Source: Cytophagia bacterium CHB2 (lineage in GTDB: Bacteria; Zhuqueibacterota; Zhuqueibacteria; Zhuqueibacterales; Zhuqueibacteraceae). From it: DNA of 60,925 nucleotides. The notes below the pieces were generated by a model. The model saw nothing but the letters and a program-made list of their open reading frames with translations. It searched no databases and was not told where the DNA came from. Positions 1,191 through 55,806 of this stretch are shown piece after piece. The DNA lies in the NCBI GenBank assembly GCA_030263535.1, contig SZPB01000006.1:1-60925 (forward strand), in the 5' to 3' direction. Each line of letters starts with the position of its first letter. The stretch's first letter is position 1. The translations under genes were made by a program, and so were the position numbers.

Positions 1191-1207
1191 GGCAGCAGGG
1201 AGCCGCG

Positions 1208-5731: not shown

Positions 5732-5854
5732 GATTTTTTGAACACGGATACCGCGAAATGCACGAATTCGTGTAGATTTTTAGTTTTTTTTGTTATCCTT
5801 GCTGCTTTATGATTTCCACGCGGTCCGTGCGCCAATTACCAAAGGAACTGCTTC

Positions 5855-33480: not shown

Positions 33481-33531
33481 TTCGCTTTGCGCCAAGCGCT
33501 ATGCCCTCTGCGCTTTGCTTTCAGGACACAG

Positions 33532-34470
33532 ATGATCGAAACCAAAACATCACCCGACATATTTCCGACTGAAACCGCCATCCAGCCCGCCAACGGCAAG
33601 GCCTCTCATCCTCCGGCATTGCCCGCGGATGACAGCGGCTGGACCATGGTTATCCGGCCCAAAGGCCATTGGCTGGAGCTGCGGCTTGACGAGTTGTGGC
33701 AGTACCGCGATCTCATCATGCTCTTCGTCCGCCGGGATTTTGTCGCGGCGTACAAGCAAACCATTCTCGGGCCGCTGTGGCATCTCATTCAGCCCTTGTT
33801 CACGGCCCTGACGTTCACGTTCATCTTCGGCAACGTTGCCGGACTCTCCACCGATGGTTTGCCCAAATTTCTGTTCTACATGGCGGGAACCGTGGCGTGG
33901 GGCTATTTTGCCAAATGTGTTACCAGTACCTCGGAAACGTTTGTCGCCAATGCCGGCATCTTTGGCAAGGTCTATTTCCCGCGCCTGGCCACGCCGATTT
34001 CCATTATCATCTCGGCGCTGATTTCGTTCGGCATTCAGTTCGGCATCTTTTTGTTCTTCATGGCCTACTTCGGCGTGCGCGGCGCGGACCTTCATCCCAA
34101 CAAGTGGATTCTGCTCACACCGGTGTTGTTGCTGCTCATGGCCGGCCTCGGGCTTGGCGCCGGCATCATCGTGTCCTCGCTCACCACGCGCTATCGCGAT
34201 CTGCGGTTTCTGGTGTCATTCGGCGTGCAATTGCTAATGTACGCCACGCCGGTGATTTACCCGCTCTCCACCATTCCGGAAAAGTACAAGAGCCTGATCA
34301 TGGCCAATCCCATGACGCCGATCATCGAGACTTTTCGCTTTGCGTTCCTGGGCGCCGGCACCGTGGATGCGATGCACCTGCTCTACAGTGCGGGTTTTAC
34401 CGTGGTAGTCTTGCTGGCGGGGATTCTGCTGTTCAACAAAGTCGAGCGGACGTTTATGGATACGGTATGA
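33532..34470 (+). CDS. wzm: ABC-2 polysaccharide export permease (Wzm/TagG type)
   Basis: This 312-residue membrane protein has a cytoplasmic N-terminus with WLELRLDELWQYRDLIMLFVRRDF, the typical Wzm amphipathic start. Six or so hydrophobic spans follow, among them LGPLWHLIQPLFTALTFTFIF and MLYATP-VIYPLS. It exports a finished lipid-linked polysaccharide with the Wzt ATPase. The ATG at 33532 follows AGGACACAG. The cognate ATPase would normally come next; instead a broken wzt is found, and the intact wzt lies 3.6 kb downstream. A short stretch of this gene (about 34269-34362) is repeated in the broken copy. Confidence 0.93.
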   Translation: MIETKTSPDIFPTETAIQPANGKASHPPALPADDSGWTMVIRPKGHWLELRLDELWQYRDLIMLFVRRDFVAAYKQTILGPLWHLIQPLFTALTFTFIFGNVAGLSTDGLPKFLFYMAGTVAWGYFAKCVTSTSETFVANAGIFGKVYFPRLATPISIIISALISFGIQFGIFLFFMAYFGVRGADLHPNKWILLTPVLLLLMAGLGLGAGIIVSSLTTRYRDLRFLVSFGVQLLMYATPVIYPLSTIPEKYKSLIMANPMTPIIETFRFAFLGAGTVDAMHLLYSAGFTVVVLLAGILLFNKVERTFMDTV

Positions 34471-34473
34471 GGG

Positions 34474-34913
34474 GGTGGAAGGGCGTGGGCCGTAGAGCGT
34501 AGGTGCGAGCCAGCACCATGCGCTTTGTCACAAAGTCAACCCTGTTTTTGAAGATTTTTGTAACGAAGTAAAGGCAATTTCTGTTTTCATTACTTCCACC
34601 AAAACAATAGATGACAGAAAAATAAAAGATTTTCAAATCTTTCTTTGTGCCGCTACGGGCGTAGCCTTTGTGGTGATGAATTATTCCGGATTAAAGTTAC
34701 CACATCATTTTGGCCTAAAGCTTCTACACCGGATTTCAGACAAGCTGAACACCGGAGCCTTTCAGGCAGCACAAAAACTTTTGGCAGAATGATTTGACGA
34801 CAGAATTATTTCAAAATCATTCTGCCGAAAAATTATTCTGCCAAGAGCTTTCATGATTTTTTTCTGAGTTTGAAAAGCTGCTCGATTAATAGTTTTGCCC
34901 TAAAATGGTTTTG
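34474..34913. other. Intergenic region with inverted repeat
   Basis: No gene is apparent. The first 45 bases are an irregular GGGCGTAGAGCGTAGG-type repeat. The arms GGCAGAATGATTT (34783-34795) and AAATCATTCTGCC (34814-34826) form a 13-bp inverted repeat with an 18-base loop, and a further partial copy (ATTATTCTGCCAA) follows at about 34833. It may terminate wzm transcription or be a small dispersed element. Confidence 0.5.
34783..34826. repeat. 13-bp inverted repeat
   Basis: The two arms are exact complements and flank GACGACAGAATTATTTCA. There is no T-run after the right arm, so it is not a standard terminator. A third, diverged copy of the arm lies just downstream. Confidence 0.55.
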
Positions 34914-34941
34914 CCTTACGCTTTACGCCTTACGTTTTACC
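34914..34941. repeat. Heptamer array (NTTTACG/CCTTACG)
   Basis: Tandem CCTTACG, CTTTACG, CCTTACG and TTTTACC units end 4 bases before the ATG of the broken wzt. The unit is the same as in the array at 55887-55927. Confidence 0.6.
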
Positions 34942-34945
34942 CCAC

Positions 34946-35537
34946 ATGCCAACAGTCATCAAAGTCGAAAACCTCTCCAAATACTACCGCCTCGGTTTGA
35001 TCGGCGGCAAGACCCTGCACGATGACCTCAACCGCTGGTGGGCGCGGGTGCGGAAACAGCCGGACCCGCTGCTCAAGATCGGCCAGGAAGACCGCCGGAA
35101 CGGGAACGACGAATCTATCTGGGCGCTGCGGGACGTGAGTTTTGAAGTGCAGCAAGGCGAGATTGTCGGCATTATTGGCCGCAACGGCGCCGGCAAGAGC
35201 ACCCTGCTCAAGATTCTCTCGCGCATTACCGCACCCACCTCGGGACAGGTGAAGGTGAAGGGGCGGATTGCCAGTTTGCTCGAAGTGGGCACCGGCTTTC
35301 ACCCCGAGCTGACCGGACGCGAGAATATCTACTTGAACGGCGCGATCTTGGGAATGAAAAAGGCCGAGATCGACCGCAAGTTTGACGAGATTGTGGCATT
35401 CGCGGAAGTGGAAAAGTTCATCGACACGCCGGTGAAGCGCACACCATTCCGGAAAAGTATCGCGGCTTGATCATAGTGAATCCCATGACGCCAATCATTG
35501 AGACCTTTCATTTTGCGTTTTAGGCGTGGGCACCGTA
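34946..35537 (+). pseudogene. wzt: Broken wzt fused to a wzm remnant
   Basis: The first 164 or so codons encode the start of a Wzt ATPase, with Walker [15 protein letters not shown] and [17 protein letters not shown]. They are nearly the same at DNA level as the start of the intact wzt at 38041. At about 35441 the sequence changes to CACCATTCCGGAAAAGTA, which matches the C-terminal part of the permease gene at about 34269-34362, out of frame. The reading frame stops at 35470. The ABC signature and Walker B are lost, so it cannot act as an ATPase. It records a deletion or recombination in an older wzm/wzt array. Confidence 0.85.
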
Positions 35538-35568: not shown

Positions 35569-37020
35569 ATGCTATTTAACTCCATACAATATATATTATT
35601 TTTACCAACGGTCGTAATCCTTTATTTCGCATTGCCACAGCGCTATCGCTGGACGTTGCTTCTTGCCGCAAGCTGCTATTTCTACATGTGTTGGAAAGTA
35701 GAATACATTTTTTTGCTTGCCGGTTCGATCATGATCGACTATTATGTTGCCATTTGCATGGATCGGACAGAAATAAAATCAAGAAGAAGGATATACTTGC
35801 TTATTAGTTTGGTTTCAAATGTCGGTATTTTGTTTACATTTAAATATTTTAACTTTCTCAACGATTCATTCAGGGCGATTTTCAACCACTTCAATATTTT
35901 TTATGGCGTTCCTGCATTCAACTTGCTTCTTCCCGTAGGAATTTCCTTTTATATATTCCAATCCTTAAGTTATTCGATTGATGTTTATCGTGGTCAAATA
36001 AAGGCTGAAAGGCATCTAGGAATCTTTGCTTTGTATGTAGTGTATTTCCCGCAATTAGTCGCCGGCCCGATTGAAAGATCTACCCATCTGCTTCCCCAAT
36101 TCCGGCTAAAACAAAAATTCGATTTTCATAGAGTTTATGAAGGTCTGACGCAAATACTCTGGGGGTTTTTCAAAAAAGTGGTTATAGCAGATCGTTTGGC
36201 AGTTTATGTCAATGAAGTTTATAACAATCCAGGCAGTTACGCGGGGGCACCTGTACTTTTGGCAACATACTTTTTCGCTTTTCAAATCTATTGTGACTTT
36301 TCAGGATATTCTGATATCGCGATCGGTTCAGCTAGAATTCTGGGCCATGACTTGATGACTAATTTTAAACGTCCGTATTTTTCAAAGTCGATCGCTGAAT
36401 TTTGGCAGCGTTGGCATATTTCCCTATCCACATGGTTTCGGGATTATCTCTACATTCCACTCGGTGGAAACCGAGTCGGCAAATGGCGCTGGTATTACAA
36501 TTTGCTGATTGTTTTCATCATAAGCGGGATCTGGCACGGTGCTAACTGGACATTCTTCTTATGGGGATTCTTACACGGAATTTATCTTGTTTCTTCAATT
36601 TTGACCAATGGAATTCGCCAAAAGATATCACATCTGTTTGGTTTTGAGGCGTTGCCACTGTTGCAAAAGTGCATGAGAATCTTTGTTACATTTCATTTAG
36701 TGTTATTTTCCTGGATTTTTTTCAGAGCTAATTCTTTGGGAGACGCCTTTCTTATAATAAAAAACATTTTCGCTATTGCCGAGTCTTCGCCAGTGCTTTT
36801 GATCGATGCTGGCTTTGGTCTGATTGAATTCAGCATCGCTCTGTTCACGATCATGCTAATGCTGTCCATCCACCTGATCGAACGCAGGACCACGCTCGCA
36901 ACTTTGATTTCTCAAAAGCCGCTATGGATGAGATGGACGTTTAATTACGCACTAATTCTTCTGATCCTTAATTTTGGCATGTTTCATAATCCCGCCGAAT
37001 TTATCTATTTTCAGTTCTAA
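35569..37020 (+). CDS. MBOAT-family O-acyltransferase (AlgI/DltB-like)
   Basis: This 483-residue polytopic membrane protein has about ten hydrophobic spans. Family landmarks include the N-terminal MLFNSIQYILFLPTVVILYF, GISFYIFQSLSYSIDVY, PQLVAGPIERS, FQIYCDFSGYSDIAIG, and EFWQRWHISLSTWFRDYLY. The proposed active-site His is in SGIWHGANWTF (about residue 322). Such proteins pass acyl groups, usually acetyl, across the membrane to a polysaccharide, working with an SGNH-fold partner, which is the next gene 8 bases on. Composition becomes strongly AT-rich from here. It sits between two wzt copies and so is probably an imported modification module. Confidence 0.92.
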   Translation: MLFNSIQYILFLPTVVILYFALPQRYRWTLLLAASCYFYMCWKVEYIFLLAGSIMIDYYVAICMDRTEIKSRRRIYLLISLVSNVGILFTFKYFNFLNDSFRAIFNHFNIFYGVPAFNLLLPVGISFYIFQSLSYSIDVYRGQIKAERHLGIFALYVVYFPQLVAGPIERSTHLLPQFRLKQKFDFHRVYEGLTQILWGFFKKVVIADRLAVYVNEVYNNPGSYAGAPVLLATYFFAFQIYCDFSGYSDIAIGSARILGHDLMTNFKRPYFSKSIAEFWQRWHISLSTWFRDYLYIPLGGNRVGKWRWYYNLLIVFIISGIWHGANWTFFLWGFLHGIYLVSSILTNGIRQKISHLFGFEALPLLQKCMRIFVTFHLVLFSWIFFRANSLGDAFLIIKNIFAIAESSPVLLIDAGFGLIEFSIALFTIMLMLSIHLIERRTTLATLISQKPLWMRWTFNYALILLILNFGMFHNPAEFIYFQF

Positions 37021-37028
37021 GTTTACAG

Positions 37029-38033
37029 ATGCAATCTGGCAACGCTTCGTACATATTCAAATCAATACTCTTTGTGGCTATATTGGTTTTGCTGCTCGGA
37101 GTAAATCATGCCATAATCGAATACTTGCTCGAAAAAAATAAAGCAAGTCTCGCAAATTGGTTATTATCGCAGCAAGAGAAGAAAGAATATGATGCGGTAA
37201 TTCTTGGCTCTTCCTCGGCCCGAGCTGCAATCAACGTTCACCAATTCTCAAAGGCCGTTAACCAATCGGTCATTAGTCTGGCCTCTGCCGGCGTTGCCTA
37301 CCCGGAGCAATATTTAATCTGGGAATTATTCTTGCGCAATAATAAGACTAAATCCCTGATCCTTGCTGCAGATTACTGGGGGCTCAGCGACTATGGGTTT
37401 TCTTACCCTTACCACGAGTATCAGTACATGCATCGCTTGGACAACGAGATCGTTCTTACAAACCTTGAAGACAATTATGGGAAATCGAAAATACTTCTGT
37501 GGCAATTTTTGCCCATGTCTAAGTATGCGGAATTCAACGCTCAAATTGGTCTTCATCACGCCTTGATTAATCTCATGAAGAATCCTGCTCCATATAATCC
37601 TTATCCAACAAATGACAACCGTAAAAAGCTGGCTTACGACGAAGAAAGCGCTGCCAGCATAACTGTTTCCGTAAAACCGAGCGAGAGCTGGGATGAGAAT
37701 CGTGAAAAATATTTTTTGAAAATTCTTCAACTATCCAGAGATCATAATGTTCAATTATTTTTGTTCATTTCTCCCGTCTTAAATGATTCCAGAATTTATG
37801 ACCTCCCGAAAGACAAAATTATTGACTATTACGCCCAGAAAGCAAAAGCATTCGGTGCATACCTCTTCAATATAAATGGACATGAGCTGACCAGAAATCC
37901 CAATAACTTTGTGAATGTAACGCATCTAAACAGTGACGGTGCTAAAGTCTTCACCGATCTCTTCGCCCAATTCCTTTTGTCAAAGAGATTTCTGGCCATA
38001 GGGCAGACACTCTCGCCGCAAAATATCCCGTAA
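37029..38033 (+). CDS. SGNH-like acyltransferase partner (AlgJ/DltD-like)
   Basis: This 334-residue protein has one N-terminal membrane anchor (SILFVAILVLLLGVNHAII). An SGNH-type fold follows: the nucleophile region YDAVILGSSSARAAIN (Ser about 61-63) and the C-terminal VTHLNSDGAKVF with the likely His. The middle contains LILAADYWGLSDYG. It is paired with the upstream MBOAT protein and would move acyl groups to sugar hydroxyls outside the cytoplasmic membrane. The substrate is presumably the glycan of this locus. The intact wzt starts 7 bases after its stop, so both are in one transcript. Confidence 0.8.
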   Translation: MQSGNASYIFKSILFVAILVLLLGVNHAIIEYLLEKNKASLANWLLSQQEKKEYDAVILGSSSARAAINVHQFSKAVNQSVISLASAGVAYPEQYLIWELFLRNNKTKSLILAADYWGLSDYGFSYPYHEYQYMHRLDNEIVLTNLEDNYGKSKILLWQFLPMSKYAEFNAQIGLHHALINLMKNPAPYNPYPTNDNRKKLAYDEESAASITVSVKPSESWDENREKYFLKILQLSRDHNVQLFLFISPVLNDSRIYDLPKDKIIDYYAQKAKAFGAYLFNINGHELTRNPNNFVNVTHLNSDGAKVFTDLFAQFLLSKRFLAIGQTLSPQNIP

Positions 38034-38040
38034 CTGTCTT

Positions 38041-39294
38041 ATGTCAACCGTTATACAAATAGAAGACCTTTCCAAATACTACCGCCTTGGGTTGATTGGC
38101 GGCAAGACCCTGCACGATGATCTCAACCGCTGGTGGGCGCGGGTGCGGAAACAGCCGGATCCGCTGCTCAAGATCGGCCAGGAAGATCCCGCTACGCGGG
38201 ACGAATACATCTGGGCGCTGCGGGATATAAACTTTGAAGTGCAGCAAGGCGAAATCGTCGGCATTATCGGTCGCAACGGCGCCGGCAAGAGCACGCTGCT
38301 CAAAATTCTCTCCCGCATTACCGCGCCCACTTCGGGACAGGTGAAAGTGAAAGGGCGGATTGCCAGCTTGCTCGAAGTGGGCACCGGCTTTCACCCCGAG
38401 CTGACCGGACGCGAAAATATCTACTTGAACGGCGCGATCTTGGGGATGAAGAAAGCGGAGATTGACCGCAAGTTTGACGAGATTGTCGCTTTCGCCGAAG
38501 TGGAAAAATTTATTGACACGCCGGTGAAACGCTACTCCAGCGGGATGTATGTGCGCTTGGCGTTTGCAGTGGCCGCACACTTGGAGCCGGAGATTTTGAT
38601 AGTGGACGAAGTGCTGGCGGTGGGGGATGCGGCGTTTCAGAAGAAGTGTTTGGGAAAGATGGGAGATGTTGCAAGAGAAGGGCGGACGGTGTTGTTTGTG
38701 AGTCATAATATGGGGGCAATTACAAATCTATGTTCGCGCGCTGTTCTTATCGTTAATGGACAAATTATCGCAGATAACAATGCGAGCACAATTGTCGGAA
38801 AATACATAGGTAGTCTCTCGTGTGCAACGGATTCCTCCTATATGTGTCAGGAAAAGCCAAATAATCGCGCTTGGATCGATTCTGCATCTCTCAAATCTGC
38901 GAATGGGAAAAAAACCGACACTTTTTTGATGACTGAGTTCATGATTGTGGAATGTTTACTTAAGATTGTGGAGAAGTCGAGATTCACACTTAGTGTTCAA
39001 ATCAAAGAAATGAATAATTCGCCAGTATGTCATTTCCCCAATGGAGATTCGTCCTACATTTTGCCTTCTCTTCCTGGATCTCATCGAATTAAAGTACGTA
39101 TTCCTTCTCTCAATCTTTACCCTGGAGAGTATCTTTTACAACTAACCTTGTGCGAATTTGCATTTGGACATTTTGAAGAAATTCACATTGTGGAAAGTAT
39201 CAGTTTCCATGTTGAACAAGACCATTCACTATGTCGTCGTCCACTTAGTCGACATGCAGGTTTGGTATTTTCCTATGCTGAATGGTCCGATTGA
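38041..39294 (+). CDS. wzt: Wzt-type ABC exporter ATPase with C-terminal glycan-binding domain
   Basis: This 417-residue protein has an N-terminal ATPase with Walker [18 protein letters not shown] signature YSSGMYVRLAFA, Walker B EILIVDEVLAVGD and the switch His in LFVSHNMG. From about residue 250 a beta-rich Wzt C-terminal domain follows (FTLSVQIKEMNN, SHRIKVRIPSLNLYPGEYLLQL), which in known systems recognises the capped end of the exported glycan. It pairs with wzm at 33532. The ATPase part matches the broken copy at 34946 closely and has ordinary GC; the C-terminal part from about 38700 is AT-rich like its neighbours. That suggests a domain swap by recombination in the conserved ATPase. 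Confidence 0.92.
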   Translation: MSTVIQIEDLSKYYRLGLIGGKTLHDDLNRWWARVRKQPDPLLKIGQEDPATRDEYIWALRDINFEVQQGEIVGIIGRNGAGKSTLLKILSRITAPTSGQVKVKGRIASLLEVGTGFHPELTGRENIYLNGAILGMKKAEIDRKFDEIVAFAEVEKFIDTPVKRYSSGMYVRLAFAVAAHLEPEILIVDEVLAVGDAAFQKKCLGKMGDVAREGRTVLFVSHNMGAITNLCSRAVLIVNGQIIADNNASTIVGKYIGSLSCATDSSYMCQEKPNNRAWIDSASLKSANGKKTDTFLMTEFMIVECLLKIVEKSRFTLSVQIKEMNNSPVCHFPNGDSSYILPSLPGSHRIKVRIPSLNLYPGEYLLQLTLCEFAFGHFEEIHIVESISFHVEQDHSLCRRPLSRHAGLVFSYAEWSD

Positions 39295-40342: not shown

Positions 40343-41458
40343 GTGAAGATTCCACAAGTTTTACCATGGCTTGACCAAGATGAGATATCTGCCGTTAATG
40401 ATACCATTAAAGCGAATTGGATCACAGAGGGCCGATTGTCGACTGAGTTTAGCTTAAAACTCAATGAGTTAATTGGAACACAATATGGTGTATTTGCGCC
40501 CAATGGTACTTTAGCGCTCTTCCTGGGGTTGTTAGCTATGGGAATTGGGCCAGGTGACGAGGTCATAGTTCCTGATTGTACTTTTATTGCTTCTGCTAAT
40601 GCTGTTATTCTGACAGGTGCCAAGCCGGTCTTCGTTGATGTAAATCGCCTCAACTACCAGATTGATGTATCGCAGTGTGAACATTTGGTGACGCCGCGTA
40701 CACGTGCTATAATGCCAGTGCATTTATTTGGGATGACTGCCAATATGATGGAAGTGATGCAATTTGCCGAACGATATCATCTCCGTGTCATTGAAGATGC
40801 TGCACAGGCAATAGGTGTTCGGTACAAGGGGCGACATGCTGGTACGTTTGGCGATATAGGGTGTTTCTCCTTTTTTGCAGACAAAACGATTACAACGGGC
40901 GAAGGAGGATATGTCGTGTGTAAGGATAAGGGACTTTATGAAAGATTGCTTCTGCTTAGAAATCAGGGACGTATTGATCGTGGTTCGTTTATCCATCCGG
41001 CTATTGGTTACAATTTCCGTATGACCGATTTGCAGGCAGCGATCGGACTAGTGCAATTGGCCAAACTGGATACGATCATTCAACGTAAGCACATTATATT
41101 GGAATGGTATCATCGCGAGCTAGATTCCATAGAAAATATACAGTTCGTTACAGTGGTGCCTGAATCCGAGTACGTTCCTTTTCGTGTTGTGCTGATTTGT
41201 CGTGGTGCGCACAGCTTGATGACTTACTTGTCAGAGCATGGTGTTCAATCGCGAACGTTTTTTTTCCCATTGCATAGGCAACCGTGTTTTGAATACTTAG
41301 GAAGGGCGCAAGGAGGTATGTTGGACTTGGATGACGAGCTTTATCCTAATGCAGTCTTTGGCTATGAAAATGGTATTTGTTTGCCAGTATTTCCTACTTT
41401 ATCTAATGAACAAGTGGATTATATCTGTTCTCACATAAAGGAATTCTACGTAAGATGA
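40343..41458 (+). CDS. DegT/DnrJ-type sugar aminotransferase
   Basis: This is a 371-residue PLP-dependent enzyme. It has WITEGRLSTEFSLKLNEL, APNGTLALFLGLLA, DEVIVPDCTFIASANAV, and VIEDAAQAIGVRYKG with the PLP aspartate. CFSFFADKTITTGEGGYV holds the PLP lysine, and YNFRMTDLQAAIGLVQL follows. Enzymes of this group put an amino group on a 3- or 4-keto sugar nucleotide. Because the locus makes GDP-4-keto-6-deoxymannose, a GDP-perosamine-type product is one possibility, but UDP or dTDP sugars cannot be excluded. GAGGAGG stands well placed before the GTG start. The stop overlaps the next gene (ATGA). Confidence 0.88.
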   Translation: MKIPQVLPWLDQDEISAVNDTIKANWITEGRLSTEFSLKLNELIGTQYGVFAPNGTLALFLGLLAMGIGPGDEVIVPDCTFIASANAVILTGAKPVFVDVNRLNYQIDVSQCEHLVTPRTRAIMPVHLFGMTANMMEVMQFAERYHLRVIEDAAQAIGVRYKGRHAGTFGDIGCFSFFADKTITTGEGGYVVCKDKGLYERLLLLRNQGRIDRGSFIHPAIGYNFRMTDLQAAIGLVQLAKLDTIIQRKHIILEWYHRELDSIENIQFVTVVPESEYVPFRVVLICRGAHSLMTYLSEHGVQSRTFFFPLHRQPCFEYLGRAQGGMLDLDDELYPNAVFGYENGICLPVFPTLSNEQVDYICSHIKEFYVR

Positions 41459-42243
41459 TGGATCCTCTCTACTACGATTATTACGATAAGATATACTCAG
41501 GCAAGAACTACCGGGCTGAAGTCGAAACGGTGCTTGGACTTTTTCAAAACAGCGTTGGCAAAATTCCTAAACGAGTTCTTGATGTTGGCTGTGGCACTGG
41601 AAGCCATGCTTTAATTCTTGCTGAAAAAGGCTGTGACGTGGTTGGAATTGACCTGGATTGCGGTGTAGTCGATATAGCTCATCGGAAATGCAGTGGCCAG
41701 ACAAACGCCACGCCTGTATTCTTATGTGAAGACGTAAGCAAACTTGAAGCAGGGAAATTCGATTTGACAGTGTCACTGTTCAATGTTATAAACTACATTG
41801 ATCAAATGGATAGCCTATTGATGTTTTTTGAATCTATTCATAAGCATCTTTTTGATGAAGGCGTATTCATCTTCGATTGCTGGAACGGCCTGGCTGCCAT
41901 TTTGGATCCGCCACGTAACAAGGATTCTAGGTTTTTAGTTGGTGGGGAACAGATTGATATTACTACCCGTCCTTGTGTTGAGTTAATGAATCAAAGCGTG
42001 AGGGTAGATAATTGTGTTGAAGTGACCGGTTCTGATGGAAGCAAACGTAAATTTATCTTTAGTTACCATCAAACCCTGTGGACTCCTTGGTGTTTAAAGA
42101 ACGTCCTAATGATAGCGGGTTTCGAGATACTTTATGTCTCTGCTTGGATGCAGCCAAATGTTATAGCTACCTATAATACATGGAAGATCACTTTTGTTTG
42201 TCAAAAAACCGGTAAAGTCTTGAGTCATATTAATAATAAATGA
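41455..42243 (+). CDS. SAM-dependent methyltransferase (class I)
   Basis: This 262-residue protein has motif I VLDVGCGTGSHALILAE, acidic post-I GIDLDCGVVDIA, and motif III-like FDLTVSLFNVINYI. It likely methylates a sugar, either as a nucleotide sugar or within the glycan. The start overlaps the aminotransferase stop, which suggests both act on the same sugar branch, but the acceptor is unknown. A methyl cap could be the end signal read by the Wzt C-terminal domain; that is an inference from better studied ABC-dependent O-antigens. Confidence 0.85.
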   Translation: MMDPLYYDYYDKIYSGKNYRAEVETVLGLFQNSVGKIPKRVLDVGCGTGSHALILAEKGCDVVGIDLDCGVVDIAHRKCSGQTNATPVFLCEDVSKLEAGKFDLTVSLFNVINYIDQMDSLLMFFESIHKHLFDEGVFIFDCWNGLAAILDPPRNKDSRFLVGGEQIDITTRPCVELMNQSVRVDNCVEVTGSDGSKRKFIFSYHQTLWTPWCLKNVLMIAGFEILYVSAWMQPNVIATYNTWKITFVCQKTGKVLSHINNK

Positions 42244-43388
42244 TAATTTATCTGTCCCACCCTTTCAAAACCTTATTATTAAATTTGCGTCTAATTTTGC
42301 CGAAAGAAAGGAGTGTGAAAATGCTGCAAAACGCAAGAAAGCGACGAAGAGATCACAACATAGAGAAAATAAGGCAAATGATCAACATCGCATATTACCC
42401 AGGCTATCGCGTCTATCTACAGAATCAGGGGTTTAATATTAATCATCCACTGAATCTCACTGGTAACCTGGATAAATGGGCGGCGTTAAAACAATTCTTA
42501 GAAGAACGGAATATAAGCATCAATACTTACGATATGTATCAAGATTTCAAAAAGATCGACATTTGGCTAATAGAAGACGCCGTACCTGACAGGTTCAAGT
42601 TTCTGCTGAAACACTGTATTAATCCTCGAAGCATAATATTTATGTTGATGGAACCTCCTGTCGTAAATCCATGGGGATGGAGATATTTAAAATACTATTC
42701 TTGTCTTTTCAAAGCTATCTTGACTTGGAATAGTGAACTTACCCAAAAACATAAAAAGTTTTTTCATTATCATTTCCCACAAAGATTTGATAGATCGAAG
42801 CACTCTTACTATAATTCAAAGAGAAAACGAAACTTATGTGTCATGGTGCACTCAAACAAATTGTCAAGCGTTCCCGGCGAGTTATATTCCTTTCGCCGAG
42901 ATATCATTAGATATTTTGAGAAAAGAGGGGATAGCTTGTTGGAACTTTATGGATATGGCTGGAATGATGAAAAAAGCAGTACCCCATTTTTTACCAATCT
43001 TTATAAAGGTACTACACCAGACAAAAAAGAGACATTCTCAGAGTACTATTTTACCTTTTGTATTGACAATAGTGTAGTTCCAGGATACATTACATATGAT
43101 CCGCTTATAGCAATGTCTACAGGATCGGTGCCCATTTATTTGCCCATGCCTGATTCTCTCAAATATATTCCCGGCAATACATTCATCAATATCAACGACT
43201 TTTCAACCCTTGATGAACTTGTGTTGTATTTACAAGATATTATTAATACAAACAGATATGAGGAATATAGACATAATGGCTGGGAGTTTATCAATTCTGA
43301 ACGCTATTTTCCTTTTACTATTGAGAAATTTTGCGAGGATATATTTAAAGCGATTTCAATATTGACCACAACTTGTTTTAGATTTTAA
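42240..43388 (+). CDS. GT10-like fucosyltransferase
   Basis: This 382-residue protein has a C-terminal half resembling the GT10 alpha-1,3/4-fucosyltransferase core. RNLCVMVHSNKLSS is followed by LLELYGYGWN, YFTFCIDNSVVPGYITYDPL, AMSTGSVPIYLPMPD and IPGNTFININDFSTLDEL. In this family that block binds GDP-fucose. The locus makes GDP-fucose via gmd and fcl, so the assignment fits. The N-terminal 80 residues do not match the family clearly. It overlaps the methyltransferase stop by 4 bases and is markedly AT-rich. Confidence 0.7.
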   Translation: MIIYLSHPFKTLLLNLRLILPKERSVKMLQNARKRRRDHNIEKIRQMINIAYYPGYRVYLQNQGFNINHPLNLTGNLDKWAALKQFLEERNISINTYDMYQDFKKIDIWLIEDAVPDRFKFLLKHCINPRSIIFMLMEPPVVNPWGWRYLKYYSCLFKAILTWNSELTQKHKKFFHYHFPQRFDRSKHSYYNSKRKRNLCVMVHSNKLSSVPGELYSFRRDIIRYFEKRGDSLLELYGYGWNDEKSSTPFFTNLYKGTTPDKKETFSEYYFTFCIDNSVVPGYITYDPLIAMSTGSVPIYLPMPDSLKYIPGNTFININDFSTLDELVLYLQDIINTNRYEEYRHNGWEFINSERYFPFTIEKFCEDIFKAISILTTTCFRF

Positions 43389-43581: not shown

Positions 43582-44802
43582 TTGGAAGAATTTTACTATC
43601 AAATACACGATCTTGTCAATGTAGTGGTTGATGCACGAGTGGATGATAAGATTGTCAAACAAATAGATTTTCAGATAGGATATTTTCGGAGCAACTTGAG
43701 AAGTGATATTGCACCTTACCAAATAGTTGTGAAGCCTTTTGAAGATTTTCAAGCGAGCAGTGAGTGTGATTTACACACATTTCACTTGGTTAAAGGGATT
43801 CCCGGAAAATGTCTAATCGATAATAATGCACGACTTGCTTTCGTAAAACAAAAACAGGGCTATACAATTTATACAGATCGGGGGGTATTGATAAATCTTT
43901 TTATTCAATTTTTCTTAATTGAGCAAGGAATATCCCTGATTCATGCCGCTGCTATTGCAGATAGATATGGCTGCGTCACGTTGCTCCCTGGAGCTGGTGG
44001 AGTGGGGAAAACTGCTCTTTTGGGTTACATGGTAAAAGAACACAATTACCGCCTTTTGGGAGACGATATTATTGGTCTGAATGATCAAGGTTATTGCCTC
44101 GCGTTTCCTAGATCTTTTGTCCTGAAAGAATATCATCAATCTGTATACCCCGAGATATTTCAACGACTGAACATTAATATTCAACAAGAGAAGCAGCGAA
44201 AGCTCACTTATTCAATTAACCCGACTGCACAGAAATTTATGAGGCTTATTCGAGAAAATGCGCCATTCCTCGGAATAACAAAAAGTCTTTTGCGTCGGTT
44301 TAAACTTTACCAGAAAATTACTCGCCATTCCAATGAAACAAAGAATCTTCCCTATTTGGCAACTGTTCCTGTTGAAGAAATATTTGGCCCGGGAATTGTC
44401 GCGAATCGAGGAGAAATTGAACGAATTCTATTCTTGGAACGCTATGCAGGCAAACAGTTCAAATTTGCGCCTTTGAGTGAGGAATCGCTTTGCCGTCGTA
44501 TGTTCGCAATCATAAACCATGAATGGGTGGAAATTATGAGACAATTGTTCACAATAGGTGCATTGGAAATAGAAAATTTGCCAAGGTATTTCGACCGTCT
44601 TGCAGCTACAGTACGTTCTGGGATTTCGGGAAAGAAATGCGAAATTTTTTTTATACCGGACAATGCTTCTCCTCGTGAGTTAGAACAATACTTTATCGGT
44701 CATGTAAATGAGATCGATGTTCGAAATCGCAGTGTTGTAATCAGGAACGAGATTGATGAGGAACCGGCCACCCAAAATAACAGTGTTAATGCCAGTATAT
44801 AA
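43582..44802 (+). CDS. HprK-like P-loop kinase of unknown target
   Basis: This 406-residue protein has in its middle IHAAAIAD, then a P-loop LLPGAGGVGKTALL (137-144) and YRLLGDDIIGL, in the order seen in HPr kinase/phosphorylase and its relatives. The N-terminal 115 residues and the C-terminal part (ERILFLERYAGK, PLSEESLCRRMF) are typical of HprK-related proteins encoded in polysaccharide and peptide loci, whose targets are not established. No HPr gene is nearby. It may phosphorylate a sugar or a protein of the export machinery. The start is a TTG at 43582 with AAAGGAAG about 9 bases before it. About 190 bases before it hold no gene. Confidence 0.7.
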   Translation: MEEFYYQIHDLVNVVVDARVDDKIVKQIDFQIGYFRSNLRSDIAPYQIVVKPFEDFQASSECDLHTFHLVKGIPGKCLIDNNARLAFVKQKQGYTIYTDRGVLINLFIQFFLIEQGISLIHAAAIADRYGCVTLLPGAGGVGKTALLGYMVKEHNYRLLGDDIIGLNDQGYCLAFPRSFVLKEYHQSVYPEIFQRLNINIQQEKQRKLTYSINPTAQKFMRLIRENAPFLGITKSLLRRFKLYQKITRHSNETKNLPYLATVPVEEIFGPGIVANRGEIERILFLERYAGKQFKFAPLSEESLCRRMFAIINHEWVEIMRQLFTIGALEIENLPRYFDRLAATVRSGISGKKCEIFFIPDNASPRELEQYFIGHVNEIDVRNRSVVIRNEIDEEPATQNNSVNASI

Positions 44803-45769
44803 TGGCGAAAAATATCTAAGTGAGGCAATTGACAGTATTCTTAATCAGACATTCACTGACTTCGAGTTTCTGATTATCAATGATGGTTCGACTGACGACA
44901 GTGTAAAGATTATTCAATCGTACGAGGATACGCGTATCCGTTTGATCCATAATGAGACCAATCTCAAGCTGATTGCCACCCTTAATAAAGGGATAGAGGT
45001 AGCAAGAGGTGAATACATTGCGCGTATGGATGCAGATGATATTAGCCTACCTGATCGTCTTGCTAAGCAGTTCGACTTCCTGAATGCAAATTCTAAAGTT
45101 GGTGTGTTGGGCTGTGCAGTGAAACTCATTGATCATTCCGGAAGCCAGGATCAGATAATGCGATTTCCATCCGCGCATGGTTTTCTCAGATGGTCTTTGT
45201 TTTTTTATTGTCCTATTGCCCATCCTTCGGTGATGATGAGACGAGTGCTCGTTAGCGATGCTGGAGGATATCGCTCTACTATGCTGCATGTGGAAGATTA
45301 TGATCTCTGGTGGCGACTAAGCCAGAAGACACGTTTATCTAACTTACAAGAGGTATTACTTCTTCTTAGAAAACACGAATACAATACGACAAAAACACAT
45401 TTTGATGAACATGTACAAAATACTTTTAGAGTCATCCAACTCATGATGTGGGAGTTTTTAAATAAGGAAGTTTCAATCGAGTTAGTTCGATGCATTTGGA
45501 ACGGACGATGTGAGACGTCAGATGACTTTTACCCATTAGCTACACTCATATATCAACTTGCAAACGCTAGCGTAAATGACAATACACTATCGGCGGCGGA
45601 GAAACAAGCAATATGTAAAGATGCGGTTAGCCGACTTTCTGCTCTAATTAACCGCAGAGCACGATATGTGAATATATTGGCCGTTCTCGGATTGGCTTTT
45701 CGATTAGACTTTGTGTTAACCTGTAGAATAATTATGAAATTGATCCGAAGAAAAATTTTTAAGAATTAG
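44756..45769 (+). CDS. Family 2 glycosyltransferase
   Basis: This 337-residue GT-A fold protein has ITVLMPVYNGEKYLSEAIDS, FEFLIINDGSTDDSV, and EYIARMDADDISLPDRL, with DAD as the metal-binding motif. HPSVMMRRVL and HVEDYDLWWRLSQ follow. It adds one sugar to the growing chain at the inner face of the membrane. The ATG lies within the end of the kinase gene, overlapping it by 47 bases. Donor and acceptor cannot be read from sequence. Confidence 0.88.
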   Translation: MRNRPPKITVLMPVYNGEKYLSEAIDSILNQTFTDFEFLIINDGSTDDSVKIIQSYEDTRIRLIHNETNLKLIATLNKGIEVARGEYIARMDADDISLPDRLAKQFDFLNANSKVGVLGCAVKLIDHSGSQDQIMRFPSAHGFLRWSLFFYCPIAHPSVMMRRVLVSDAGGYRSTMLHVEDYDLWWRLSQKTRLSNLQEVLLLLRKHEYNTTKTHFDEHVQNTFRVIQLMMWEFLNKEVSIELVRCIWNGRCETSDDFYPLATLIYQLANASVNDNTLSAAEKQAICKDAVSRLSALINRRARYVNILAVLGLAFRLDFVLTCRIIMKLIRRKIFKN

Positions 45770-45785: not shown

Positions 45786-47135
45786 TTGCATATTCTCCAA
45801 GTCAGCCCGGGTGACATAGGTGGCGGTGCTGAAAAGGTAGGGTGGAACCTATTCACAGGCTGTCGGGAACGAGGTCATCCTTCATGGTTGGCAGTGAGGG
45901 CCCAGCATTCTAGTGATCCGGACGTAGTTAAGATTCCTCGTCTGCCACAGTCAAAGGCGTGGGCGACTGCGTGCTGGTTGTTCCATGGACGCTTGGCCCC
46001 CTTAAAAGAACGAGTGGCTGGTATTGAACGACTCTGCTCTTGGTTAAGGGATTTGGCCAGAGGGTGGCAACCAGCGATTGAACGCAGAATGGGGCACGAG
46101 GATTTTAATTTTCCGGGTAGCCATCGATTACTGCAATTACCGCCATGCAAGCCCGATATCGTTCACTGCCACAATCTGCACGGTGGTTATTTCGATTTGC
46201 GATTATTGCCATGGCTTAGCCAACAGGTACCGGTTATCGCGACTTTACACGATGCGTGGCTGCTCAGTGGGCATTGTGCGCATTCTTTTGATTGCGAGCT
46301 TTGGCGTACAGGCTGTGGTCATTGTCCTGATTTGACCATATACCCGGCTATCCTCCGAGATGCAACAGCATATAATTGGCGACGAAAACAGCGGATTTAT
46401 GAGCAAAGTCGACTTTATGTTTCCACTCCCTGTCAGTGGCTGATGAAAAAGGTTGATCAATCCATTTTAGCCCCCAATGTGATAGAGACTCGCGTGATTC
46501 CCAACGGGGTAAATTTAAATATTTTTCGACCTTCTAACAAGCAAATAGCTCGAGCGAAGATAGGATTGCCGTCCGATATTCCAATGCTTCTTTTCACAGC
46601 CAACTCCATTCAAAAAAATATATGGAAAGATTATCAGACCATGCAAGCTGCTGTAGCAATAATAGCCGAGCAACTCAATAATCAACGGCTGCTTTTTGTT
46701 GCCTTGGGCGAAGACGCGCCGAGTGAACAAATAGGGCAGGTAGAAATACAGTTTGTGCCGTATCAGGCAGACCCTGCAATCGTTGCCCGTTACTATCAAG
46801 CAGCAGACATCTACATTCACGCTGCCCGTGCTGAGGTGTGGGGTCTTACAATCACTGAGGCGCTAGCTTGTGGTATACCGGTAGTTGCTACGGAAGTAGG
46901 GGGAATCCCTGAACAAATTAATGATAATGTTTCCGGGTTTCTGATTCCACCTGGCGATAGCAAATCGATGGCAGATCGAATAATACGGCTTTTGACTGAC
47001 AAGGACTTGCGGCAACAAATGGGAAAGCAGGCTGCTGAAATAGCGAGAGACAGATTTGATTTAAATCGCCAAGTAGACGATTATTTGGCATGGTATCAGG
47101 AGATATTAGACAATCGACAGAATTTTCAAATTTAA
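45786..47135 (+). CDS. Family 4 glycosyltransferase
   Basis: This 449-residue GT-B protein has the N-terminal HILQVSPGDIGGGAEKV, ATLHDAWLLSGHCAHS, and IPNGVNLNIFRPS. The C-terminal donor site is AEVWGLTITEALACGIPVVATEVGG. A cysteine-rich stretch (HCAHSFDCELWRTGCGHCP) is seen in a subgroup of GT4 enzymes (WcaC-like) and may bind a metal. The start is a TTG with GAGG 5 bases before it. It retains sugar configuration, as is usual for GT4. Confidence 0.88.
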   Translation: MHILQVSPGDIGGGAEKVGWNLFTGCRERGHPSWLAVRAQHSSDPDVVKIPRLPQSKAWATACWLFHGRLAPLKERVAGIERLCSWLRDLARGWQPAIERRMGHEDFNFPGSHRLLQLPPCKPDIVHCHNLHGGYFDLRLLPWLSQQVPVIATLHDAWLLSGHCAHSFDCELWRTGCGHCPDLTIYPAILRDATAYNWRRKQRIYEQSRLYVSTPCQWLMKKVDQSILAPNVIETRVIPNGVNLNIFRPSNKQIARAKIGLPSDIPMLLFTANSIQKNIWKDYQTMQAAVAIIAEQLNNQRLLFVALGEDAPSEQIGQVEIQFVPYQADPAIVARYYQAADIYIHAARAEVWGLTITEALACGIPVVATEVGGIPEQINDNVSGFLIPPGDSKSMADRIIRLLTDKDLRQQMGKQAAEIARDRFDLNRQVDDYLAWYQEILDNRQNFQI

Positions 47136-47155
47136 GTAAAGTTACACCTACTAAT

Positions 47156-48019
47156 ATGGTCGTCGTGCAACTTCTGGGCGGTTTGGGCAATCAACTATAT
47201 CAATATGCTATTGGTCGGCAAATCGCTCTAACCAATGACGCTCCACTCAAACTCGAGTTATCAAAGGTGGCTAAAGACCCTCTTCGAACCTACAGATTGA
47301 AACACTTCAAGATTGAAGCCGAGATCGCTACACCTGATGACGTCATACAGGCTAAAGGCGGAGCCGGCATGATCGGTCGCTTGCTCCGCCGCCTTGACCG
47401 ATTTAAACCGTATTATCGACGCTTCTGGGTGAAAGAACGTCACTTTCACTTCGATCCTAAAATCTTGACCATCTCTGGCACTGTTTTCTTAGATGGATTC
47501 TGGCAGAGCGAGGCCTATTTTAAAAGTATCGAAAAAAAACTTCGTGAAGAGCTGGCGCTTCGTTCCAAACTATCAGCATGCAGCGAACGGATCGCACAAA
47601 CTATGCAAAACACTACTTCGGTGAGTCTGCACGTGCGTCGGGGAGATTACGCCGCCAATCCGGATATATACTACAATTGCCCTTTGGAATATTACCAAAA
47701 CGCCATTGCGAAAATCAAAAGCCGCGTTGAAAACCCACATTTTTTTGTCTTTTCAGATGACCCGGCATGGACTCGGGTGAATTTAACGATCAATGACCCC
47801 ACAACCTTTGTGACCCATAACGGCGTTGATAGAGATTACGAGGATCTTTGGCTGATAAGTCAGTGTAAACACCATATCATTGCCAACAGCACATTTAGTT
47901 GGTGGGGCGCATGGCTGTGCTCGCAGCCTGGAAAAACCATTATTGCGCCCAAACAATGGGCTTGGCAAGCGAAGTACAATCATAAAGAGCGCATCCCAGA
48001 GGAGTGGGAAACGCTATAA
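47156..48019 (+). CDS. GT11 alpha-1,2-fucosyltransferase
   Basis: This 287-residue protein starts VVVQLLGGLGNQLYQYAIGR, the family N-terminus. It carries the diagnostic VSLHVRRGDYAA (about residue 155-166), FFVFSDDPAW, and HHIIANSTFSWWGAWL. Enzymes of this family move fucose from GDP-fucose to a galactose 2-OH, making H-antigen-like ends. Together with gmd, fcl and the GT10-like gene it shows a fucose-bearing glycan. I chose ATG 47156 rather than the upstream in-frame ATG at 47090, which lies inside the preceding gene. AT-rich composition begins to ease here. Confidence 0.9.
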   Translation: MVVVQLLGGLGNQLYQYAIGRQIALTNDAPLKLELSKVAKDPLRTYRLKHFKIEAEIATPDDVIQAKGGAGMIGRLLRRLDRFKPYYRRFWVKERHFHFDPKILTISGTVFLDGFWQSEAYFKSIEKKLREELALRSKLSACSERIAQTMQNTTSVSLHVRRGDYAANPDIYYNCPLEYYQNAIAKIKSRVENPHFFVFSDDPAWTRVNLTINDPTTFVTHNGVDRDYEDLWLISQCKHHIIANSTFSWWGAWLCSQPGKTIIAPKQWAWQAKYNHKERIPEEWETL

Positions 48020-48024
48020 AGAAG

Positions 48025-49341
48025 ATGCACATTTGCCTGGCAACACGAGAGTTTCCACCGATAACAAATGGCGGCATAGCCTCCTATTACGTTCATTTAG
48101 CGCAACTGCTTGCCGACCATGGGCATGAAGTAACGGTTCTGACGGTTGGTAAAGAAGGTAAAGAGTCGCTGTGGACTTATCCGGGCGTAAGGGTTATCAG
48201 GCTAAGCCACCCGAGCGAGAAGCTCTTTCGCCGGCTTCGACGGAGATTTGAGGTGGGAATGGATAGCGCGGCGCGCTCCATCGCCGATGGTCTGGCCATG
48301 CGTGACTGGCTATTCGCCAACGCTACAAAAATGGATATTGACGTTGTAGAAACTGTTGAATTTGATGGGGCAGCGCCGTTTTTGATTGAAAATGAGTTGC
48401 CGCCAACCTTGGTGATGTGCCATGGTTCAAATGGACAGGTGAAGTTTCATACTCAAAAAGGTGAAACGCCAAGGCAAAAACTCATCAATTCACTGGAAGT
48501 GATGAGTATCGGATTGGCCGACGAAGTCGGATGTTATAGCCCGCTTAATGCAGAGGACTGGGAGCGTTTCATCGGCCGTAAACCGCGCTTCATTACCGCG
48601 CCTTATAAGTTTGCTGACCCTCGCATACTTAAGAAATCTTATGATACGAACAATACCGGCATTGTTGTGGGCAGAATGAATAATTGGAAAGGCATCTTTG
48701 AGCTGGTTGAAGCGCTAAATCTTTGCGTGCAAAGAGGAAATAATGTCAAAATCCGCTGGATAGGAAGTGATCAGGCGGCGCCTTTAGAATCGGTCAAATC
48801 CGTAAAAGCGTATTTACAGGAACGCTATCCGTCACTGTGGGGAAAGCATTTTCTGTGGGAAGAGTTTTTGCCACCCGAGGAAACCCGGCGTGCGCAGTTG
48901 GAAGCAGACTTTGCTATCGTGCCGTCGCGATGGGATACGTTCAATTTCACCGCTATTGAGGCCTTGTCACTGGGTACACCATTGATCATTTCGACCGGCG
49001 CCGGTGCCAGCTATCTCTGCAAAAATATGGAAAACGGCATCGTCGTTCCCTCCAGAGATGCCAGGGCATTGGCAAATGCCATTGAAATTCTCCAAGATGG
49101 TGTTCTGCGAGAACGACTGGGCAAACAAGGACGAGCAACGATCCAACGAGAATTTGCGGCGGAAAAGATTGTGGCGGAGCACGTCGCCGCGTACGAGTCG
49201 GCCATGGAAAGGCACCGATATCGCAAAGAGAAGATTTACAATTCTTCTCTCATGGAGCCGTTTGTGCGGCAATGGCAACAGTCCATAAATATTGCTTCGC
49301 TAAAACGATTGGCGCATTTGCCGAGAAAATTGTTGAGTTGA
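48025..49341 (+). CDS. Family 4 glycosyltransferase
   Basis: This 438-residue GT-B enzyme has MHICLATREFPPITNGGIASYYVHL at the start (acceptor domain; the first 20 residues include the G-rich loop). VVGRMNNWKGIFELVEAL and PSRWDTFNFTAIEALSLGTPLIIS form the donor site. ATG 48025 is 5 bases after the GT11 stop; an upstream in-frame GTG at 48004 overlaps that gene. The C-terminal about 40 residues (MERHRYRKEKIYNSSLMEPF) extend past the usual fold. Confidence 0.85.
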   Translation: MHICLATREFPPITNGGIASYYVHLAQLLADHGHEVTVLTVGKEGKESLWTYPGVRVIRLSHPSEKLFRRLRRRFEVGMDSAARSIADGLAMRDWLFANATKMDIDVVETVEFDGAAPFLIENELPPTLVMCHGSNGQVKFHTQKGETPRQKLINSLEVMSIGLADEVGCYSPLNAEDWERFIGRKPRFITAPYKFADPRILKKSYDTNNTGIVVGRMNNWKGIFELVEALNLCVQRGNNVKIRWIGSDQAAPLESVKSVKAYLQERYPSLWGKHFLWEEFLPPEETRRAQLEADFAIVPSRWDTFNFTAIEALSLGTPLIISTGAGASYLCKNMENGIVVPSRDARALANAIEILQDGVLRERLGKQGRATIQREFAAEKIVAEHVAAYESAMERHRYRKEKIYNSSLMEPFVRQWQQSINIASLKRLAHLPRKLLS

Positions 49342-53173: not shown

Positions 53174-54085
53174 ATGAAATTTGGAGCTTTTGTCGTTACT
53201 TATAATCGCCCTACGATTTTGCAGGAAAGCATTAAATGCTTTTTGGAACAAACGCGGCCGCCTGATATAATTTTGATCGTCGACAATGGGGATCCCGAGG
53301 GAACAAAATCAGTATTAAAAGGTTTTCCCCAAGCGAAAGTCATACACGAGCTTACCGGTTCGAACCTCGGATCAGCCGGGGGCTTTGCTTATGGTGTGAA
53401 GTGGCTGTATGAGCATGGTTATGACTGGATCTATTGCGGCGATGATGACAATCCGCCAATCACCTCAGATACCCTGGAGCGACTCTTGAAGCTGGGTAGT
53501 ATCTCCGATGATGTCGCTGCCGTAGGCGCTGTTGGAGCGCTTTGGGATTGGAAAAAAGGAGAAGCGCGACGTTTGTCCGATGAAATGCTGAAAGATATAC
53601 TTTATGTCGATTTCATTGGACAAGGACATAGCTTTACATTGAATCGGAAAGTGGTTGAGTCGGTCGGGTTGCCCAATGGCAAACTCTTTTTTGGTTATCC
53701 AGATTTGGAATATTGTCTCAGAATACGCCGGGCCGGCTACCGTTTGCTCGTTGACGGAAAATTGATGCATGAGCATCGAGCCCGTGCCGGGCGACTCAAT
53801 CTGGAATTAAAGCAGTCGCTTCTTCCTTCCCGCACTTATGACAGCATCTGGCGGAATTACTACACGACGCGCTCATATATTTTTATGATGACACAAATCT
53901 TCAAGAGATCCGACCTGGCCCGGCGCGAGACCCTCAAGGCCATGGGCAGAATTTTGATGTCTTGGAAACGTGGCCCCAAATACGGTGCGGCATTCACTGG
54001 CTATCAATTGCGCGGCGTCGTGGATGGCTATCTTGGCCGCATGGGACGCACGGTTCTGCCCAAGCCCAAAAAGGCTACGACATAA
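53174..54085 (+). CDS. Family 2 glycosyltransferase (galactofuranosyltransferase-like)
   Basis: This 303-residue protein has FGAFVVTYNRPTILQESIK, ILIVDNGDPEGTKSVL, SNLGSAGGFAYGVKW and WIYCGDDDNPPIT with the DDD metal motif. FFGYPDLEYCLRIRRAGY follows as the catalytic base region. The SAGGFAYG/DDD combination is seen in galactofuranosyl and related GT2 enzymes. No UDP-galactopyranose mutase is in the window, so the donor stays open. Confidence 0.85.
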   Translation: MKFGAFVVTYNRPTILQESIKCFLEQTRPPDIILIVDNGDPEGTKSVLKGFPQAKVIHELTGSNLGSAGGFAYGVKWLYEHGYDWIYCGDDDNPPITSDTLERLLKLGSISDDVAAVGAVGALWDWKKGEARRLSDEMLKDILYVDFIGQGHSFTLNRKVVESVGLPNGKLFFGYPDLEYCLRIRRAGYRLLVDGKLMHEHRARAGRLNLELKQSLLPSRTYDSIWRNYYTTRSYIFMMTQIFKRSDLARRETLKAMGRILMSWKRGPKYGAAFTGYQLRGVVDGYLGRMGRTVLPKPKKATT

Positions 54086-54116
54086 CTTTAGGCGCCATAA
54101 AAATAGGGATGATTTC

Positions 54117-55130: not shown

Positions 55131-55806
55131 TCTCGATGACACCCTCTATCCGGAGCGCGACTATGTTTTGAGCGGATTTCGCAGCGTCGCGATTTGGGCG
55201 GAAACCCGCCTTGGCATTCCCGCCGCGCCAGGTTTCGCCGAATTAGAAAGGTTATTCGATCAGGGCGTGCGTGGCAAAACGTTTGATCTCTGGCTCGCCT
55301 CGCACCACCTCGAAGCGAACCGTATTATTCCGGAATTAGTTCAGGTCTACAGAAATCACGAACCCAATTTAGCGCCGTTGCCCGAAGTGGCTGCTTTGCT
55401 TTCGTCGCTGAAAAATACTTACCAGTTGGGTCTTCTCAGTGATGGCTACCTTGAAGTGCAGCAACGCAAACTTTACGCTTTACGCCTGACGCATTATTTC
55501 GATGCCGTCGTCTTTTCGGATGAATGGGGGCGCGACGCCTGGAAGCCTGCTGTCAAGCCTTTTGCAGAAATCCTGGCGCGTCTGCGGACGGAGGCCGGCG
55601 CCTCGATCTACGTCGGCGATAATCCAACCAAAGATTTTCTCGGCGCGAGGGAGCTCGGCATGTTCACGATTTGGGTCAAACTGCCGGAAGGCCTTTACAC
55701 CGCACTGGAGCCGCCAACACCTGCGCATGCTCCCGATCTTACGCTGGAATCCTTAGTGGAATTGAAACCTTTCTTGGATGGCAGAATTACAAAAGCTTCC
55801 AAGTAA
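55069..55806 (+). CDS. HAD-family hydrolase
   Basis: This protein of about 245 residues has motif I AVIFDLDDTLYPERDY (nucleophile and acid/base aspartates), motif II LLSDGYLEVQQ, a motif III lysine in DAWKPAVKPF, and motif IV IYVGDNPTKDFLGARELG. A helical cap follows motif I. It removes phosphate from a small metabolite. It overlaps and is coupled to the ATP-grasp gene, so the pair probably acts in one step series. The start is uncertain: TTG 55069 or another TTG nearer motif I at about 55105. Confidence 0.85.
   Translation: MTILSFYLRRTLRKWQAVIFDLDDTLYPERDYVLSGFRSVAIWAETRLGIPAAPGFAELERLFDQGVRGKTFDLWLASHHLEANRIIPELVQVYRNHEPNLAPLPEVAALLSSLKNTYQLGLLSDGYLEVQQRKLYALRLTHYFDAVVFSDEWGRDAWKPAVKPFAEILARLRTEAGASIYVGDNPTKDFLGARELGMFTIWVKLPEGLYTALEPPTPAHAPDLTLESLVELKPFLDGRITKASK

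Follow-up and report, generated by a model that had tools for sequence, protein, structure and literature searches.

A divergent HprK-like kinase of a polysaccharide locus, with a distinctive C-terminal domain and a possible role in glycan phosphorylation

The window, which is the whole stretch of DNA analysed (60,925 nucleotides, an entire contig of a 7 Mb genome in 681 contigs), encodes an HprK-like P-loop kinase among polysaccharide genes (Table 1). From profile comparisons, the protein is most suitably classed as a divergent member of an HprK-like subfamily that is associated with polysaccharide loci and marked by its own C-terminal domain, and we give about an even chance to the reading that its phosphate acceptor is a glycan building block or substituent. 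We favour this role because the kinase core is retained, the protein has this C-terminal domain, relatives recur in polysaccharide loci, no RiPP partners were found beside the gene, and its presence appears to vary between strains.

The kinase gene and its family

The reading frame of the kinase was intact over 406 codons, with AAGGAAG 8 nt 5' of the start codon; a GT10 gene flanks it on the 5' side and a GT2 gene on the 3' side, the latter overlapping it by 50 nt. In the alignment with 7 canonical HprKs, Lys143 and Thr144 of the Walker A motif and the pair Asp161-Asp162 matched their equivalents, and His121 paired with the conserved histidine before the P-loop of HprK, RiPP-type and type-B kinases; we take these residues to have catalytic roles in HprK. 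A sequence-only reading had described a P-loop kinase of the HPr kinase group among glycosyltransferases, and the exact ORF, the aligned core and the GT10 and GT2 flanks bear this out. It had also asked about loss of the catalytic Asp and about another P-loop family; the Asp pair is present, and no other family fitted better in the libraries searched. An AlphaFold2 prediction from a two-sequence alignment had a pLDDT of 30 and was unusable.

Table 1. Coordinates of the features discussed, numbered from the first nucleotide of the window
Feature	Position	Strand	Evidence or remark
Wzc-like protein	27207-29543		
ABC-2 membrane protein (Wzm-like)	33487-34470	+	E 3.2e-19
Truncated Wzt copy	34946-35470	+	Intact wzt at the matching place in G062
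MBOAT O-acyltransferase	35569-37020	+	E 7.1e-27
Gene without Pfam match	37029-38033		Between MBOAT and complete Wzt
Complete Wzt-like ATPase	38041-39294	+	Sub-threshold Wzt_C
Class I SAM methyltransferase	41455-42243	+	Two genes upstream of the kinase
GT10 (fucosyltransferase family)	42240-43388	+	E 1.4e-10
HprK-like P-loop kinase, 406 aa, TTG start	43582-44802	+	ORF call, weak family matches, profile comparison
His121	43942-43944	+	Alignments
Walker A GAGGVGKT, residues 137-144	43990-44013	+	Sequence motif, alignment
Asp161-Asp162	44062-44067	+	Alignment with 7 canonical HprKs
C-terminal domain, residues 186-406	44137-44799	+	Common to the type-B family; not RiPP-type, N-type or canonical HprK
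GT2 glycosyltransferase	44753-45769	+	E 9.9e-36; overlaps the kinase 3' end
GT11 glycosyltransferase	47090-48019	+	Region 47155-49166 75% identical to the same-species locus
ATP-grasp ligase, PylC-like N-domain	53970-55130	+	Differs from the ATP-grasp family beside type-B kinases
HAD-family hydrolase	55069-55806	+	

Library searches returned matches confined to residues 108-183, the P-loop core, all under curated cut-offs: PEPCK_ATP (PF01293) scored 19.1 bits against a cut-off of 26.5 over residues 108-175 only, Hpr_kinase_C (PF07475) 15.6 against 33.3, and HprK_rel_A (TIGR04352) 19.4 against 200, while TIGR00679 (cut-off 240) was absent among matches at E up to 1. Because every library match was below its cut-off, assignment to HprK, HprK-related A or PEPCK was rejected. 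The sequence search of the PDB gave PEPCK at E 0.27 or above and HprK (1jb1) at E 1.7; ATP-type PEPCK thus provides the best weak matches in both Pfam and PDB, on the common P-loop core only. A regular expression for the pattern that we take to be the HprK signature after the core matched 6 canonical proteins and left the kinase unmatched.

Profile comparison with hhalign gave 40.6 against 7 canonical HprKs (25 shuffles, at most 30.9), 64.2 against 5 RiPP-type kinases (25 shuffles, at most 23.5) and 71.3 against 15 type-B proteins (25 shuffles, at most 25.3); the kinship of the protein to HprK-like kinases is above chance. For five control proteins with ATP-binding folds, the highest scores were 28.7 with the canonical profile and 23.0 with the type-B profile. 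With the RiPP-type profile, the same controls scored as high as 53.7, the ABC and thymidylate-kinase-like ones with E values between 3e-7 and 3e-6 in alignments of 22-29 columns, and the RiPP-type score is therefore partly generic. Compared with HprK (TIGR00679, PF07475), the kinase shares the aligned His, Walker A and Asp-Asp core but differs in the signature, the C-terminal domain and its sub-threshold score, and a canonical copy is found elsewhere in the genome, on contig C9 (TIGR00679, E 6.5e-111). HPr itself is encoded on contig C190 (111 bits), so that the earlier description of a locus without HPr stands for the locus and fails for the genome as a whole.

Relatives in the phylum and their genomic context

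We searched up to 82 genomes of the phylum for HprK-like genes and found canonical HprK, PqqD-adjacent genes, a group N (compared through two members, G000 C158 and G008 C117), a type B, and the window kinase together with a KSB1 relative (locus L012, genome G027 contig C61, same class as the window genome). Type B comprises 15 matches at E < 1e-60 in 14 genomes, of about 390 aa, with the P-loop GWxxGGKT in 13 of them; at the site of the Asp pair, 14 have GDEW and one GDDW, and the window kinase has Asp-Asp. Taken by itself, the window protein matched the type-B profile with E 3.2e-9, in an alignment of 344 columns that spans residues 5-382. For its C-terminal domain alone, the type-B score was 36.4; 25 shuffled versions peaked at 23.2 and the C-terminal parts of 35 other proteins from the window at 22.8, and the scores for the RiPP-type, N-type and canonical groups lay between 11.9 and 14.8. 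The C-terminus of the KSB1 relative was collinear with type B at a weak score of 25.9, and for both proteins the N-terminal segment matched type B at about shuffle level (18.9 and 20.5). A C-terminal-domain model, itself built from 6 of its 17 matches, found 17 places in the 82 genomes, namely the 15 type-B genes, the window kinase and L012, all in genes already known as HprK-like.

The kinase core gave a different order, with type B lowest at 35.7, canonical HprK at 38.5, N-type at 49.0 and RiPP-type at 60.1. In a core tree of 29 rows and 128 columns, which excluded the type-B rows L087 and L088 because the P-loop pattern missed both, the window kinase was not joined to type B; it paired with the KSB1 relative (80/71) on very long branches, its own of 2.27 changes per column, and the pair lay near the N group (86/63). 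We trusted the C-terminal domain over the core, since the short core is conserved across many P-loop proteins. The window kinase is thus provisionally grouped with type B by its C-terminal domain; the core does not group it there, and the placement is not unanimous. The very long branch, together with a strain-restricted distribution, could also mark a degenerate protein that is inactive or structural, and we consider this very unlikely, as the Walker A Lys and Thr, the His and both Asp are kept in an intact frame.

For the genomic context, polysaccharide genes near the relatives were identified by BLAST to reference proteins at E 1e-8. The results showed such genes near 11 of the 15 type-B loci, and near 14 when linked clusters were included (adding L076, L082 and L086); the one left, L075, is on a contig of only 4.8 kb. 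None of 6 canonical HprK loci had them. Wzc matches occurred at two RiPP-type loci (L046 and L048) and GT4 matches at two N-type loci (L056 and L058), and polysaccharide context is not exclusive to kinases with the window-type C-terminal domain. The L012 locus carries a Wzx-type flippase, a UDP-GlcNAc 2-epimerase and a GT4. At 10 of the 15 type-B loci the kinase has an ATP-grasp gene next to it or nearby, and FemAB-like proteins occur at two. With names taken from few Pfam-scanned proteins, and with PF14907 under its cut-off there, thymidylate-kinase-like proteins were counted at 11 type-B loci, NTP_transf_5-like proteins at 8 and either at 12. In the window, we found no ATP-grasp, thymidylate-kinase-like or NTP_transf_5-like neighbour of the type-B form.

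No neighbour protein was common to all 17 loci, the widest cluster being present in 12. This bears on the possibility that the enzyme is a protein Ser/Thr kinase regulating a glycosyltransferase, the Wzc-like protein or the Wzt of the locus. HprK is itself a protein kinase and a Wzc-like protein is encoded in the window, but a neighbour target shared by all loci is missing, as is the HprK signature pattern, and strain-variable presence would suit product diversity better than regulation; we regard such a regulatory role as quite unlikely.

A search up to 20 kb from each of the 17 domain-bearing genes, several of which lie on contigs shorter than this, gave no PqqD. Seven HprK-like genes outside the 17 (16 genomes), one with an internal stop, had PqqD within 3.3 kb and lacked the C-terminal domain; this is a description and not an independent test, because these loci were recognised by their neighbours. 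According to the available text of PMC8498205 and PMC13381572, HprK-like kinases of RiPP pathways phosphorylate Ser, and a nucleotidyltransferase can add hexoses to that phosphate. A tailoring kinase of this paeninodin/LPP-like kind, with partner genes elsewhere, could sit at the window locus: HprK-like kinases are found in RiPP clusters embedded in capsule loci (available text of PMC13381572), the window genome has a RiPP-type cassette on contig C45, and the window contig stops at 60925, 16 kb past the kinase. We nevertheless judge it most improbable, because the sole PqqD of the contig, at 1256-1453, is 42 kb off beside a radical-SAM gene, PF14907 was unmatched on this contig and on that of the KSB1 relative, and no Transglut_core3 was detected among the window proteins scanned. 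Moreover, the 193-bp gap 5' of the kinase contains short ORFs only (32-64 aa), which run into the kinase start or sit on the opposite strand, and the C-terminal domain is not common to RiPP-type kinases. The lasso/LPP RiPP kinases ThcoK, SyanK and LppK, and likewise HprK_rel_A, have an HprK-like core, as the window kinase does, but the latter differs in having its own C-terminal domain and no nearby RRE or NTP_transf_5 match; the RiPP-type proteins compared here were those of this phylum. The earlier mention of RiPP relatives is thus correct for other HprK-like genes beside PqqD, and finds no support for the window kinase, which has no PqqD nearby.

Several gene arrangements were seen around the HprK-like genes. 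L087 and L088, from two genera, have the same order of ATP-grasp, type-B kinase, thymidylate-kinase-like and FemAB/GNAT-like genes, and a second FemAB gene, accompanied by a methyltransferase-like gene, is found on the upstream side in one locus and on the downstream side in the other. In L056 (G000 C158), the group-N gene follows a gene that, judged by eye, is response-regulator-like. L045 (G000 C45), L049 and L050 are RiPP-type cassettes in which the HprK-like gene accompanies B2-like and radical SAM-like genes; the B2-like protein is named Transglut_core3 in L049, and PqqD adjoins in L045 and L049.

Beyond the phylum, genome-contig scans with peptide patterns returned no homologue in one scan and one locus in the other; rarity outside the phylum is not established by them, because the patterns did not contain the P-loop. 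Viral contigs gave no homologue, PHROGs gave no match, PADLOC gave one match at chance level, and phages gave two weak matches (E 0.02 and 3) to proteins annotated as structural. On plasmids, the window protein had no match at E 0.01, and relaxing the limit to E 10 gave 13 weak ones; the KSB1 relative had 5 weak matches and a type-B protein none. A Methylosinus plasmid match at E 4e-4 in a looser search was absent from the search at E 0.01; this match (metal-efflux context) and one to a Bosea plasmid were left out of the later counts.

The export locus of the window and its local history

The complete Wzt of the window has a Wzt_C domain at E 5.5e-4 (20.4 bits against a cut-off of 30.4). We compared the locus with that of a genome of the same species, G062, and found that the DNA at 34819-35446 is 99% identical to its wzt region, the identity stopping at 35446. 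Between the complete window Wzt and that of G062, residues 1-225 are 92% identical and residues 226-417 only 28%. GC content is 35-48% in the genes between 35.5 and about 46 kb, compared with 51% over the window; for the kinase it is 39% (GC3 33%). After wzt, G062 carries methyltransferase, GNAT, GT4, DegT and GT11 genes, and the kinase was not detected among the called ORFs of its locus fragment. Searches with the kinase protein found in G062 the RiPP-type match only and nothing in the congeners G001 and G002; the C-terminal model found nothing in G062 and in the congeners their type-B genes only. Absence of the kinase from G062 is likely rather than proven, because G062 has a completeness of 94% and contig breaks interrupt its locus. 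From this comparison we infer that recombination exchanged the modification genes and the carbohydrate-binding end of Wzt at the window locus.

These features also bear on the main rival explanation, that of a chain-terminating cap, in which the kinase would phosphorylate the non-reducing end of a lipid-linked polymer. The nearby methyltransferase might turn this into a methylphosphate; Wzt_C would read the end and the ABC transporter would export the chain. In the two characterised kinase terminators, WbdD and K. pneumoniae ORF6-O7, the product is a methylphosphate end and the protein includes a coiled coil; their kinase folds are unrelated, eukaryotic-type in WbdD and AmiN-like in ORF6-O7, and Wzt recognises the terminated chains (available text of PMC3482155 and PMC11231755). 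In both, as in the window, a kinase and a methyltransferase occur at an ABC-transporter locus with Wzt_C. The window kinase, of the P-loop type, would be a functional analogue of these enzymes with an unrelated fold, in keeping with the different kinase folds already used by methylphosphate terminators. The Wzm/Wzt locus with its sub-threshold Wzt_C, the methyltransferase two genes upstream, and a G062 fragment with no kinase among its called ORFs and with a diverged Wzt C-terminus are consistent with this.

However, we consider capping unlikely. No Wzm/Wzt match was obtained by BLAST near the KSB1 relative or the 15 type-B genes, and the former has a Wzx-type flippase. The kinase shows no sign of a coiled-coil ruler: on a crude home-made score it reached 1.23, with 20 shuffles at 1.25 or below and the Wzc-like protein, as a yardstick, at 1.47. 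The methyltransferase, which is a separate protein here, reached 1.32, a value equalled or exceeded by 3 of 40 of its shuffles. GT10 separates the two genes, the window methyltransferase is unlike that of the G062 locus, and its match to the WbdD methyltransferase domain (E 2.8e-5) is weak and generic, one of 45 matches and not the best. The Wzt difference could also stem from other genes of the stretch. Capping before ABC export, as the sequence-only reading proposed, thus fits Wzt_C, the methyltransferase and the altered Wzt, and is opposed by the lack of Wzm/Wzt matches near the relatives and by the missing ruler sign on the crude score.

Elsewhere in the window, a dispersed repeat of about 100 bp lies at about 34773-34880, where it separates wzm from the truncated wzt. 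Four genomes of the genus contain dozens of matches to it, some of them present on both strands at a single place, as in a palindromic or MITE-like element. At 1100-7612, a PqqD gene (1100-1468) and a radical SAM/SPASM gene (1465-2496) are followed by a protein with caspase and alpha/beta-hydrolase domains (2453-5731), a CHAT-domain protein (5855-7612) and then a large WD40 protein, and this set may represent an RRE-guided maturase beside protease-type proteins.

Proposed role of the kinase

For the favoured role, in which a glycan building block or substituent receives phosphate, we infer an activity, an acceptor, a timing and a role for the C-terminal domain as follows. The kinase would work at the cytoplasmic side while the polysaccharide is assembled. 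Its Walker A lysine and threonine would hold Mg-ATP, and an Asp of the Asp161-Asp162 pair would activate the acceptor hydroxyl, which may belong to a sugar or to a substituent of another kind, for example an amino acid. Phosphate addition to a sugar, which the sequence-only reading had suggested, would fit the occurrence of these kinases at polysaccharide loci. Acceptor recognition would fall to the C-terminal domain, taking the place of the HPr-binding region in HprK or of the RRE in RiPP pathways, and the kinase would be a strain-variable modification enzyme outside core export. Among the titles and abstract beginnings of the literature searched, no HprK-like kinase acting on polysaccharide was mentioned.

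A broader proposal, which we hold to be improbable, is that kinases with the window-type C-terminal domain are an RRE-independent class phosphorylating glycans or their amino-acid substituents. At type-B loci, the kinase with the ATP-grasp ligase, the thymidylate-kinase-like or NTP_transf_5-like proteins and, at two loci, the FemAB-like proteins would then give a phosphorylated aminoacyl substituent, subsequently nucleotidylated or glycosylated, a possibility motivated by the RiPP chemistry of kinase and nucleotidyltransferase in the available text of PMC8498205 and PMC13381572. By analogy, this would amount to a transfer of the lasso-peptide chemistry of these two enzymes to polysaccharide, and in the ABC-exported window locus this kinase type may have turned into a chain cap.

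HprK-like genes in polysaccharide loci risk annotation as HPr kinases or as enzymes of RiPP pathways. Within this phylum, the C-terminal domain together with the presence or absence of PqqD splits the polysaccharide-associated group from the RiPP-type kinases. If glycan phosphorylation is the true role, these genes would add one more fold to the glycan kinases and would provide a marker for phosphorylated surface polymers.
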